IMG/VR virus record: IMGVR_UViG_3300036886_000511
Span: 1 to 27,840 of that record
Direction: 5' to 3' (one strand)
Source of the DNA: a virus
Length of the DNA stretch: 27,840 nucleotides
Shown here: piece by piece, positions 13,883-25,799 of the stretch
Position numbering within the stretch: position 1 is the first letter of the stretch
Layout of the letters: each line of letters starts with the position of its first letter
Made by a program: the position numbers and the translations under genes
The notes under the pieces: model-generated
Database searches by the model: none
Told to the model about the DNA's origin: nothing
The model's input: the letters and a program-made list of their open reading frames with translations, nothing else

Positions 13883-14638
13883 ATGTCAATCACAAGAACA
13901 CGTAAAAGTCAGCTTCCAAAAACGGGATGGACTGTTCCATACGATGGAGAGGGTTTTGACGATGGCGGAATTCAAGCTGGTAGTCCGATTTTACCCCGAT
14001 TTATTGATAACGGAGATAATACAATTACGGATCGAGTTACAAATCGTCAATGGATAAAGCAACCAGAATTAATTATTCCTGATGGATTGAGGGCAGATAA
14101 TATAGGGCAACCGAAAGGATTCTGGGTTTCAGGTGGTCCTTATGCAGCGGGAGATATTGTAACTGATTCATCAGATAATTCGGCTTGGATTTGCTTAATT
14201 GCGAATACTCATACTAATGTAACAAGTTTTGCGGCAGAAAGAACGGCTAATCCAACCTACTGGTCCGCCACAGCAAGTATATGGGCAGTAGATGATGGTT
14301 CAGGCAATTTAATTCCATCGCAAGATTTTGTTTGGAGCAATGAAGACACTGGAAAAGGAGCTACTGATTCGTGCAAAGGATTAACAAAATCAGGAAAGAG
14401 CGACTGGTATTTGCCGAATCGTTTTGAATTAGAGAGTATTTTAGATTTAAGTCAAGTCAGACCAACAATTAATTCAACCATTTTTCCGAATACGCGCACG
14501 GATAACTATTATTGGACTTCATCCCCTTACGCCGACGACCCCGGCGGCGTCGCCTGGATTGTCTTCTTCGACGATGGCGGCGTCAGCAGCAACGACCGCG
14601 GCGGCTACGGCTATGTCCGGCCAGTCCGCCAGTATTAA
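13883..14638 (+). CDS. DGR variable (target) protein with DUF1566/Lcl-type C-type-lectin domain
   Basis: A 251-aa protein. Residues 39-60 (DNGDNTITDRVTNRQW) and 175-250 (WYLPNRFELESILDLS, FPNTRTDNYYWTSS, then YVRPVRQ) match the DUF1566/Lcl_C domain, a C-type-lectin-fold scaffold used by many DGR targets. Residues 79-129 (FWVSGGPYAAGDIVT ... WICLIANTHTN ... PTYW) look like an inserted CBM5/12-like carbohydrate-binding module. The last 38 codons before the final Tyr (residues 213-250) are the variable repeat. ATG 13883 is chosen over an earlier in-frame ATG (13850) that lies inside the upstream gene. It probably binds a variable receptor on the host surface. Confidence 0.88.
   Translation: MSITRTRKSQLPKTGWTVPYDGEGFDDGGIQAGSPILPRFIDNGDNTITDRVTNRQWIKQPELIIPDGLRADNIGQPKGFWVSGGPYAAGDIVTDSSDNSAWICLIANTHTNVTSFAAERTANPTYWSATASIWAVDDGSGNLIPSQDFVWSNEDTGKGATDSCKGLTKSGKSDWYLPNRFELESILDLSQVRPTINSTIFPNTRTDNYYWTSSPYADDPGGVAWIVFFDDGGVSSNDRGGYGYVRPVRQY
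14519..14632 (+). repeat. DGR variable repeat (VR)
   Basis: A 114-bp segment pairs base for base with 15116-15229. By my count 19 positions differ and every one is an adenine in the template copy: 15 became G, 4 became T, none C. No difference falls on C, G or T. This is the signature of adenine-specific mutagenic retrohoming. The last 22 bases (CTATGTCCGGCCAGTCCGCC then AG) are identical and probably include the initiation-of-mutagenic-homing region. Similarity ends 3 bases before the gene's stop codon. Confidence 0.95.
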
Positions 14639-14667: not shown

Positions 14668-15024
14668 ATGGCTCAATACTCCCATTTACCAATATACAAC
14701 AAAGCATATGGTATCCTGCGAGAATTCTATGTCCGTGTGCCGAAATTTGGGAAACAATACAAATATTTTCTGGGAAACGATCTGATAAAATATGCCGTTG
14801 AAATAATAAAGATTATTATTAAAGCAAACAGCGAGCGGGATAAAAAGAGGCGCACAGAATTGATAGAATATTTATGTTTAACAATTGAGATGTTGATTAC
14901 CCAATTACGCATAGCCAACGAATTACGGCAGTTAGGCGGGCAAAAATCATATCTGTATTTATCTGAGTTGGTTGTGGATTTGTCAAAACAGGCTGAGGGC
15001 TGGAAGAAATACACCCCGGAATGA
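14668..15024 (+). CDS. avd: DGR accessory variability determinant (Avd), four-helix-bundle protein
   Basis: A 118-aa, mostly helical, strongly basic protein. After an aromatic/basic N-terminus (HLPIYNKAYGILREF, RVPKFGKQYKYFLG) it has the regular helices expected of the Avd/S23-like four-helix-bundle family. Avd forms a pentameric barrel, binds the reverse transcriptase and TR RNA, and is required for cDNA synthesis in BPP-1. It lies between the target gene and the TR, as in the Bordetella phage DGR. Its TGA stop is part of a hairpin (15023-15043) that opens the TR RNA region. Confidence 0.88.
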   Translation: MAQYSHLPIYNKAYGILREFYVRVPKFGKQYKYFLGNDLIKYAVEIIKIIIKANSERDKKRRTELIEYLCLTIEMLITQLRIANELRQLGGQKSYLYLSELVVDLSKQAEGWKKYTPE

Positions 15025-15253
15025 TTAACCCGCGTGGTTAGTCAGCGAGGGTTTTGGAAATACAAACCCCTGCCCTTGAAAGAGGATAGAAGCACGAAGT
15101 CAGGGGTTATCTAAATCATCCCCTTACGCCGACGACCCCGACAGCGACGCCTGGATTGTCAACTTCAACAATGGCAACGTCAACAACAACAACCGCAACA
15201 ACAACAACTATGTCCGGCCAGTCCGCCAGCACTTCCTATTCAGCCCAGCCTGT
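15023..15253 (+). ncRNA. DGR template RNA region with structured 5' leader
   Basis: This non-coding stretch carries the TR and its flanks. At its 5' end GATTAACC/GGTTAGTC (15023-15030, 15036-15043) forms an 8-bp hairpin with one G-T pair. Further in, AACCCCTG/CAGGGGTT (15065-15072, 15101-15108) form a perfect 8-bp stem enclosing 28 bases. GGGTTT/AAACCC (15049-15054, 15064-15069) would form a competing hairpin. In BPP-1 the sequences flanking TR are needed for priming and RT/Avd binding, and these structures are good candidates for that role. The exact RNA ends are unknown. Confidence 0.7.
15116..15229 (+). repeat. DGR template repeat (TR)
   Basis: This is the invariant donor copy of the 114-bp repeat. 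Read in the frame of the target gene it encodes 38 codons including 12 Asn codons (11 AAC, 1 AAT), clustered as four AAC, CGC, four AAC. Adenine mutagenesis of AAC cannot create a stop codon, and it can give many residues. The TR ends 33 bases before the RT start at 15263. It contains about 35 adenines, 19 of them changed in the present VR. Confidence 0.95.
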
Positions 15254-15262
15254 TTGACAGAT

Positions 15263-16081
15263 ATGCAAGAAGTATTCATATTAGAGAAATTATGGAAAGC
15301 ATATCTTGATTGTAAAAAGAGAAAGAAAAACACAATCAACGCGCTTAAGTTTGAAATCAACCGAGAGAAAAATCTGATTGCTCTTTTAAAAGAATTAAAA
15401 TCAAGAGAATATAAAATATCTAAACACATTTGTTTTATTGTTAAAGATCCGACTGTTAGAGAAATCTTTGCCGCAGATTTTCGGGACCGAGTTGTGCATC
15501 ATCTTTTATATAATGAAGTTAAGGGTATATTTGAGAAAGACTTCATTAAAAACTCCTTTGCAAACAGGATCGGCAAGGGCACGCACAAAGGAGTTGAAAA
15601 ATTAAAAGAATATTTAAAAGACCAGAGCATCACTCATTTTCTAAAACTGGATATAAAAAGTTTTTTCTGCTCGATAAATAAAGATATTTTATACGGGATA
15701 GTTTCTGAAAAAATTAATGGCGCAGACAAAAGTTTTGGATGGAAAAAGGATATTTTATGGTTGTGTGGTAAGATAATATATAACGACCCGACAAAGAATT
15801 ATCTTTTTAAGGGCAATTGGAGATTAAAGAATTTAATCCCGAAAGACAAATCGTTGTTTTATTCAAAAGGGAAAGGATTGCCAATTGGAAACCTGACATC
15901 ACAATTTTTCGCCAATGCATATTTAGATCAGTTAGATAAATTCATTTACGGACTTGGCCACAAATATTATATCAGGTATGTTGACGATTTTATTATTTTG
16001 GGTGATAAAAACATTTATGAGGACACAGATAAAGCTGAGCGAGAAAAAAGTAAGGTTTCAGCCGGTAGAAATGGGCATTGA
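15263..16081 (+). CDS. DGR reverse transcriptase, N-terminal and catalytic part (frame broken)
   Basis: A 272-aa frame covers RT fingers and palm. It shows FLKLDIKSFF (first catalytic Asp, about residue 130), GLPIGNLTSQ with the DGR-specific IGxxxSQ motif (208-214, where group II intron RTs have QGxxxSP), and the catalytic YVDD (239-242). Shortly after YVDD it runs into DTDKAEREKSKVSAGRNGH and stops at TGA 16081. The expected thumb region (GIDFLGY onward) continues in the +1 frame. ATG 15263 is preferred over an in-frame TTG at 15254. The enzyme would copy TR RNA into adenine-mutated cDNA with Avd. A deletion of 3n+2 bases near 16015-16040 is the simplest cause. Confidence 0.85.
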   Translation: MQEVFILEKLWKAYLDCKKRKKNTINALKFEINREKNLIALLKELKSREYKISKHICFIVKDPTVREIFAADFRDRVVHHLLYNEVKGIFEKDFIKNSFANRIGKGTHKGVEKLKEYLKDQSITHFLKLDIKSFFCSINKDILYGIVSEKINGADKSFGWKKDILWLCGKIIYNDPTKNYLFKGNWRLKNLIPKDKSLFYSKGKGLPIGNLTSQFFANAYLDQLDKFIYGLGHKYYIRYVDDFIILGDKNIYEDTDKAEREKSKVSAGRNGH

Positions 16082-16337
16082 TTTTCTGGGATATTTTATA
16101 AAACCCAGCCACATATTAGTCCGGAGAAAGGTTGTGGGTAGATTCAAAGATAAAATGTATAGATTGGGCCCGGTGAATGTAAAAGAGTTAATGGCAACAG
16201 GCAATTCATATTTTGGGCATTTCATTCACGGCGATTCATTCAAATTAAGAAAAACAATTTACGATAAATATTTTAAAGGAAAATTCAAATTTAAAAAACA
16301 ATATAAATCAATAAAACTTCTACCACCGAAAAAATAA
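16017..16337 (+). CDS. DGR reverse transcriptase, C-terminal (thumb) part in the +1 frame
   Basis: This frame carries IKLSEKKVRFQPVEMGIDFLGYFIKP and ILVRRKVV, the conserved end of DGR reverse transcriptases, and ends in a Lys-rich tail (LLPPKK). It is offset +1 from the catalytic part. The distance from YVDD to the lysine pair is roughly ten residues shorter than I expect for the family, which points to a small deletion. An ATG at 16017 could start a separate 106-aa chain overlapping the upstream part by 65 bases, so a two-chain enzyme is possible. Otherwise this is the 3' half of a broken gene. Confidence 0.75.
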   Translation: MRTQIKLSEKKVRFQPVEMGIDFLGYFIKPSHILVRRKVVGRFKDKMYRLGPVNVKELMATGNSYFGHFIHGDSFKLRKTIYDKYFKGKFKFKKQYKSIKLLPPKK

Positions 16338-24329: not shown

Positions 24330-25799
24330 ATGAAGAATCAAAAGGTTAGATATTTTCAACCCCTAAAGTTTGCTCAGCCCGGAGCAGACGATTTAAAGAC
24401 AAAGTCTGTATTGCAGATTGATTACGGTTTGTTTGCTCACGTAGGGGCTACCCTGGCGCGCAAATTCGGAAAGGCATATTACTATACTCCTTGGCAGGAT
24501 GACTTCCCTAGCTCGGCTAAACAGCGCCTGGGAACGGATATGGATGGATTAATTAGAGTTCAAAATTTTTGGGATTACATTGACAAAGTTGATTTAATAG
24601 TTTTCTTTGATACATATCAGGCAGATCTCATAGATTATTTAAGAAGGAAGGGATATAGAGTTTGGGGAGCCGGCCGGGCAGAGAATATGGAAGCTCATCG
24701 GTGGGAGATGAGAGTAATGCAAAAAGAAGTGGGGTTGCCTACGCAAGATACTTTAAAAATAAGGAGCGTGGCAGATTTAGAGTTGTATTTTAAAGGCATC
24801 CGGAGAACGGTGTTTGATTTAGTAGGACAGGTTGATGAGTCAGCCGAGCAGGAGATATTTGACAAAATAAAAGAAAAGTATGAAAACTTTTCAGAGAATT
24901 ATTTTATTACAGAGGCCAGTGATAATAAATTTAAAATGATGGATGAGTGGATTTTGGGAGCTAAGAATAAATATATCAAAGCAAATATGAGGGGAGATAT
25001 TGAAAGCTTTTTTGCGCCAGACTATGATGGTTCGCTTTCAAAATTAAATGCGTTGGCCGATAGCTTTGGACATAGACAAGATGCGAGCGAGGTTGAGTTT
25101 GTTGTAGAAAATCAGGTTGAAGGAATTGAGCCGGGAGGAGACCATATACAAATCAACGGAGAGTTTTTAAGCCCTACATTTTACGGATATGAAATGAAAG
25201 GCCAGGGAGATTTAATTAAGGCATGCGCATATGACGAGTTGCCAAAACCTATAATTGAACTTAACGATAAGCTTTCAGCCATAATAAAAAAATATAATCC
25301 GACAGCTTCTTTTTTCTCAACAGAATTTATGATGGGCAAAGACGAGAAGCCTTATTTGATTGATCCGACTGTGCGCAATCCGGCGCCCTGTGGGACCGCT
25401 ATAATGTCTGAGATGATTGAAAACTTGGCCGAAGTTATCTGGTATGGAGCTGCCGGCATTAAAGTATCGCCAAAAATTAACGGTGTTTACGGGGCCGGTG
25501 TTGCCATAGAATCAGAATGGGCTGAAGAGCATGAGCTTGAAGTTGAAGTGGACCCGTCGATTCAGCAGTTTGTTAAATTTAGAAAGGCATATAAAAAGAA
25601 TGGCAAATATTATTCTGTGCCCGGCTTCTCTTCCATCTGTTCAGTTATTGGTTTTGGAGATACAATAAAAGAGGCAGTTGATTTAGTTAAAATGAGAATG
25701 GAAAAAGTAAAAGGATATGGCCTGCAGAAATCTACGTCGGGACTTGATGCAGTTCAGGAGGAAGTTAAAAAAGGTGAATCATACGGAATTAATTTTTAA
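24330..25799 (+). CDS. ATP-grasp enzyme (PurD/carboxylate-amine ligase-like)
   Basis: A 489-aa protein. The N-terminal part (to about residue 110) looks like a pre-ATP-grasp alpha/beta domain (DLIVFFDTYQADLIDYLRRKGYRVWGAGRAENME). The central part fits ATP-grasp: AHRWEMRVMQKEVGLPTQD as in PurD-like ligases, VEFVVENQVEG, and the metal-binding FSTEFMMGKDEKPYLIDPTVRNPAP in place of the usual E...N.R set. The C-terminal GAGVAIES and FGDTIKEAVDLVKMRME resemble the PurD end domain. ATP-grasp enzymes join carboxylates to amines, amides or peptides through acyl phosphates. The substrate here is unknown. Its place between tail fibres and lysis genes hints at modification of virion or cell-wall material. 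Confidence 0.75.
   Translation: MKNQKVRYFQPLKFAQPGADDLKTKSVLQIDYGLFAHVGATLARKFGKAYYYTPWQDDFPSSAKQRLGTDMDGLIRVQNFWDYIDKVDLIVFFDTYQADLIDYLRRKGYRVWGAGRAENMEAHRWEMRVMQKEVGLPTQDTLKIRSVADLELYFKGIRRTVFDLVGQVDESAEQEIFDKIKEKYENFSENYFITEASDNKFKMMDEWILGAKNKYIKANMRGDIESFFAPDYDGSLSKLNALADSFGHRQDASEVEFVVENQVEGIEPGGDHIQINGEFLSPTFYGYEMKGQGDLIKACAYDELPKPIIELNDKLSAIIKKYNPTASFFSTEFMMGKDEKPYLIDPTVRNPAPCGTAIMSEMIENLAEVIWYGAAGIKVSPKINGVYGAGVAIESEWAEEHELEVEVDPSIQQFVKFRKAYKKNGKYYSVPGFSSICSVIGFGDTIKEAVDLVKMRMEKVKGYGLQKSTSGLDAVQEEVKKGESYGINF

Follow-up and report, generated by a model that had tools for sequence, protein, structure and literature searches.

The window analysed here is a partial phage contig of 27,840 nt (IMG/VR record IMGVR_UViG_3300036886_000511) in which a Mu-like head module is present (Portal_Mu and Mu-like_Pro matches). 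It holds a complete and otherwise normal diversity-generating retroelement (DGR), made up of a target gene with an Lcl_C domain, a variable repeat (VR), Avd, a template repeat (TR) and a reverse transcriptase (RT) that is broken. The features are as follows.

13884 to 14638, + strand: DGR target gene with a C-terminal Lcl_C (C-type-lectin-like) domain (Pfam PF07603, E 4.8e-23); the VR lies at the gene end
14519 to 14632, + strand: VR, 114 nt, with 19 differences from the TR
14668 to 15024, + strand: Avd accessory protein, 118 aa (PF22296 bAvd, E 3.3e-12; NF033474; phrog_3206)
15116 to 15229, + strand: TR, 114 nt with 35 A, from repeat comparison with the VR
15254 to 16081, + strand: RT N-part, motifs 1–5 including IGNLTSQ and YVDD (PF00078, E 1.7e-11; phrog_1423, E 4.3e-72; ORF list)
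16026 to 16033, + strand: junction of the deletion, from alignments with loci L003 (contig G001) and L002 (contig G002)
16030 to 16337, + strand: RT C-part, with the end of motif D, the GIDFLGY primer grip and the thumb (phrog_1423 positions 350–450, E 2e-14)

Elsewhere on the contig, close to where the tail/lysis genes end, a 489-aa ORF (24330–25799) has no Pfam match; judged by eye it is possibly an ATP-grasp-like enzyme, which would be unusual cargo for that position.

The RT carries the marks of the DGR clade. Motif 4 is IGNLTSQ, in agreement with the (I/V/L)GxxxSQ signature by which DGR RTs have been defined (PMC3521204), the YxDD motif is YVDD, and the phrog_1423 match is strong (E 4.3e-72). 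It is homologous to the bRT of BPP-1, the link running through the RT of a 38-kb relative, G002 (IMGVR_UViG_3300047202_000009), to which bRT is homologous at E 6e-42. The avd accessory gene is also in place (PF22296, phrog_3206). The end of the TR lies only 33 nt from the RT ATG (15229–15263). The corresponding interval of BPP-1, between TR and RT, holds the cDNA-priming spacer RNA (PMC12875486); given the short distance here, the window's group may carry the equivalent RNA element within the coding sequence of the RT.

Each of the 19 sites at which the VR departs from the TR is an adenine in the TR (15 A>G and 4 A>T), and none of the 79 non-adenine sites is changed. With 19 of 35 TR adenines altered, the VR is heavily mutated, as had been claimed at first inspection. 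Both repeats share the same G+C-rich 3' end, GTCCGGCCAGTCCGCCAG, at the IMH position, and differences restart directly beyond it. We found no second VR in the window, which is a partial contig. Since a long-dead DGR would accumulate other changes, a VR/TR pair that differs only at adenines points to recent inactivation, and the DGR appears to have been functional until very recently. The same conclusion was drawn from such pairs in the DiGReF paper (PMC3521204), and the pattern fits the earlier suggestion of a DGR caught soon after its loss.

The frame that holds IGNLTSQ and YVDD (15254–16081, with ATG 15263 the likely start) ends just past YVDD according to the ORF list, and its residues downstream of the junction are off-family. 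The thumb (GIDFLGYFIKP...) is encoded +1 relative to the N-part, in a frame open to 16337. The two parts match the phage RT family phrog_1423 at consecutive profile positions (106–330 and 350–450). The ORF list and profile matches bear out an earlier note, which had reported a stop at 16081 with the thumb continuing +1. It was also right that the spacing from YVDD to the thumb is about ten residues short: YVDD to the G of GIDFLG takes 85 nt (28.33 codons), whereas 186 distinct viral DGR RTs have 40 (n = 2), 41 (n = 82) or 42 (n = 102) residues, which leaves a shortfall of 35 nt (11.67 codons). A single full-length RT frame through the thumb, such as an active DGR has, is thus lacking in the window; a broken RT ORF with no non-adenine VR/TR differences is the combination found in the recently inactivated DGRs of DiGReF Fig. 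4. Past purifying selection on the RT N-part is indicated by comparison with G002 (pN 0.13, pS 0.77, with synonymous sites saturated and the ratio not meaningful).

An intact allele is available in a sister contig, G001 (IMGVR_UViG_3300037089_000175, loci L003 and L011), a viral contig from another metagenome whose overlap with the window runs from 15907 up to the window end. From 15907 to about 23,000 there is no mismatch, and the sole difference is a 35-nt segment that is present in G001 and missing from the window between 16029 and 16030. No other indel occurs in the first 10 kb, and all 206 mismatches lie beyond about 23,000. Left of the junction, the comparison covers only 123 nt of G001. 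The G001 RT is one open frame to its normal stop (YVDDFIILGDKNIYEDTDKIRQFLKDKLDLKLSEKKVRFQPVEMGIDFLGY...), and the window C-part is identical to the in-frame C-part of G001 (L003). Sizing the gap against the closest intact RT, a check proposed at the outset, thus gives 35 nt, and these extra nucleotides in an open RT support the option, raised with it, of a small deletion that silences the DGR. G002 (L002), which is 77% identical at the DNA level, also carries the 35-nt segment. With the outgroup sharing it, the window is the derived state and has lost the segment.

Two TAAA repeats flank the segment, and the placement of the deletion is ambiguous across this 4-nt microhomology. When deletions of similar size are simulated in this DNA, about 1–3.5% show homology of at least 4 nt, and the TAAA homology mildly favours slippage. 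A search for the deletion junction in other viral contigs yielded no second copy. Beyond the 7 kb of identity, the divergence between the window and G001 is clustered, with 14 mismatches at 23.0–23.5 kb and a rise from 25.5 kb, and looks like recombination between close phages.

What losing the segment would do to the enzyme can be judged from the G002 RT as modelled with confidence by AlphaFold2 (mean pLDDT 93, pTM 0.90). The segment corresponds to residues 261–272, which in the model form the second half of a helix (252–269) and the turn leading to motif D. This helix comes immediately after the YVDD hairpin (strands 238–242 and 245–250). Within the segment, conservation among 32 viral RTs reaches 91% at column 264 and 97% at column 269, and in the BPP-1 bRT structure 8ub7 the homologous stretch is present and aligns across the lost region. 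The frameshift also takes the primer grip and thumb away from the N-part product. With half of the palm helix behind YVDD lost and the frame shifted, the window RT is almost certainly dead.

The outgroup has the same DGR gene order as the window, with an Avd 83% and an RT 78% identical, and its TR/VR differences are likewise only at A. Unlike the window, it retains the 35-nt segment and carries another VR at a remote site; its RT frame goes off farther downstream, at an A11/A12 run. G002 is probably circular, with overlapping contig ends. The overlap of 158 nt holds this out-of-frame run, which reads A12 at one contig end (L002 5922–5933) and A11 at the other (L012), and the thumb resumes in another frame past it. 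The run is one of only two homopolymers of at least 9 nt in the G002 pieces examined, and could reflect sequencing stutter, phase variation or slippage decoding of the RT. The remote VR (L013 4433–4530; G002:C1 22432–22529) belongs to an Lcl_C ORF of 139 aa. The genes around this ORF are of early type, with a helicase-like ORF and a single-strand-binding-like protein close by. Counted by eye, 20 of the 21 differences between this VR and the TR are at adenines.

To see how common broken RTs are, we collected DGR RTs by three alignment-based scans of viral contigs, using queries that end at YVDD, and one further scan with full-length RTs. The scans gave 213 distinct viral DGR RTs, of which 208 keep an open frame through the thumb, three are cut by contig ends and two are broken. 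Broken RTs thus make up about 1% of the sample, a lower bound because the sample favours intact N-parts. One of the broken RTs, L096 (48% identical to the window RT), has lost ~20 nt from the same palm helix relative to five relatives (lesion region 2700–2900). Its thumb is likewise in the +1 frame, and nearly all differences between its VR-like repeats and its TR are at A; its deletion is independent of that in the window. The other, L137, is shifted in frame just before YVDD. Two of the three breaks seen fall after YVDD, but we do not claim a lesion hotspot there, as the sample is small and N-part queries favour downstream breaks. A scan of genome contigs for related RTs gave only a group II intron RT, and no host or prophage was found. 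The 35-nt deletion of the window, the ~20-nt deletion of L096 and the out-of-frame run of G002 could be taken to mean that phage lineages repeatedly silence their DGRs through lesions in the RT, perhaps under selection, with the A11/A12 run as a possible phase-variable or slippage-decoded switch of the RT; we regard this broader reading as unlikely.

Our preferred explanation, to which we assign a probability of roughly 0.84, is that the 35-nt deletion in the RT silenced a phage DGR which had been active until very recently. Replication slippage between the two TAAA repeats would be the simplest route to such a deletion, which would remove about 12 residues and shift the frame. The truncated RT, without primer grip or thumb, should make no cDNA, and the target gene would keep its present VR unchanged unless co-infection supplied an intact RT in trans or recombination with an intact allele replaced the lesion. 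The deletion and its polarity, the open frame of the sister phage and the adenine-only VR/TR differences can be read directly from the contigs; neighbouring genes form long open frames, with no sign of general frame noise. We infer that the deletion exists in real phage genomes, where it could be a minority variant; it could also be a chimeric read promoted by the assembler.

The earlier note had listed a consensus or assembly error among its options, in which case the phage RT is intact and the gap comes from a chimeric or slipped read in library preparation or assembly. The junction occurs in no other contig, while the one near-identical contig is intact. Assemblies also tend to break in the RT, as G001 ends inside it at window position 15907, and the G002 contig both starts and ends within its own. 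However, 4 nt is far below any assembler word or usual k-mer, and junction homology this short argues against assembler collapse and means that deletion-bearing reads must have existed; moreover, the gap is not at a homopolymer and the surrounding genes are intact. We therefore consider an artefact unlikely.

Two further possibilities would leave the window with a working enzyme. The two frames overlap (15954–16081), and an A6 run lies within the overlap (near 16044–16049), where ribosomal frameshifting or transcriptional slippage might fuse them into a shortened RT. The shift required is +1, whereas a −1 slip at the A6 run lands in the wrong frame, and programmed −1 frameshifting was rejected on this ground. 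A fused product would still be without 11–12 residues of a helix region in which 186/186 relatives keep a spacing of 40–42, and the sister gene in G001 needs no recoding, all of which makes such a fusion very improbable. The alternative of a two-chain RT, also proposed earlier, has both parts present and nearly undecayed, and an ATG at 16017 that, as reported, is in the frame of the C-part. In G001, though, the frame from this same ATG stops after 10 codons (read from sequence), so the ATG has no history as a start codon and is best seen as an accidental by-product of the deletion. The lost half of the palm helix occurs in neither piece, and 208/213 sampled viral RTs are single-frame. That the pieces assemble into a functional enzyme is hardly credible.

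If the DGR was indeed silenced by the deletion, the locus offers an unusually clean snapshot of DGR loss, with active and broken alleles on contigs identical over 7 kb. Paired samples could show how fast a hypermutation system is lost in phage, and whether a frozen variant of the target protein later spreads. A population survey has reported that 50–75% of DGRs were recently active, the viral ones showing the highest values (PMC8144416).

In its parts (target, VR, Avd, TR and RT), the window resembles the DGR of Bordetella phage BPP-1 (bRT 8ub7 and eight more entries). It departs from BPP-1 in its broken RT, its Lcl_C target and the short interval of 33 nt from the TR end to the RT ATG. The kind of event is not new, as inactivated DGRs with broken RTs and adenine-only VR/TR differences have been known since the DiGReF survey of 2012 (PMC3521204, Fig. 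4), whose cases include a nonsense mutation in Ruminococcus gnavus, an insertion element in Acaryochloris marina and a frameshift in Bacteroides sp. 9_1_42FAA. As in those DGRs, a small mutation breaks the RT ORF while VR and TR stay intact and differ only at adenines. Here, by contrast, the lesion lies on a phage contig and removes a segment of a palm helix. What the window adds is the almost isogenic intact allele: a near-identical copy from another sample makes the size of the lesion exact and sets its direction.
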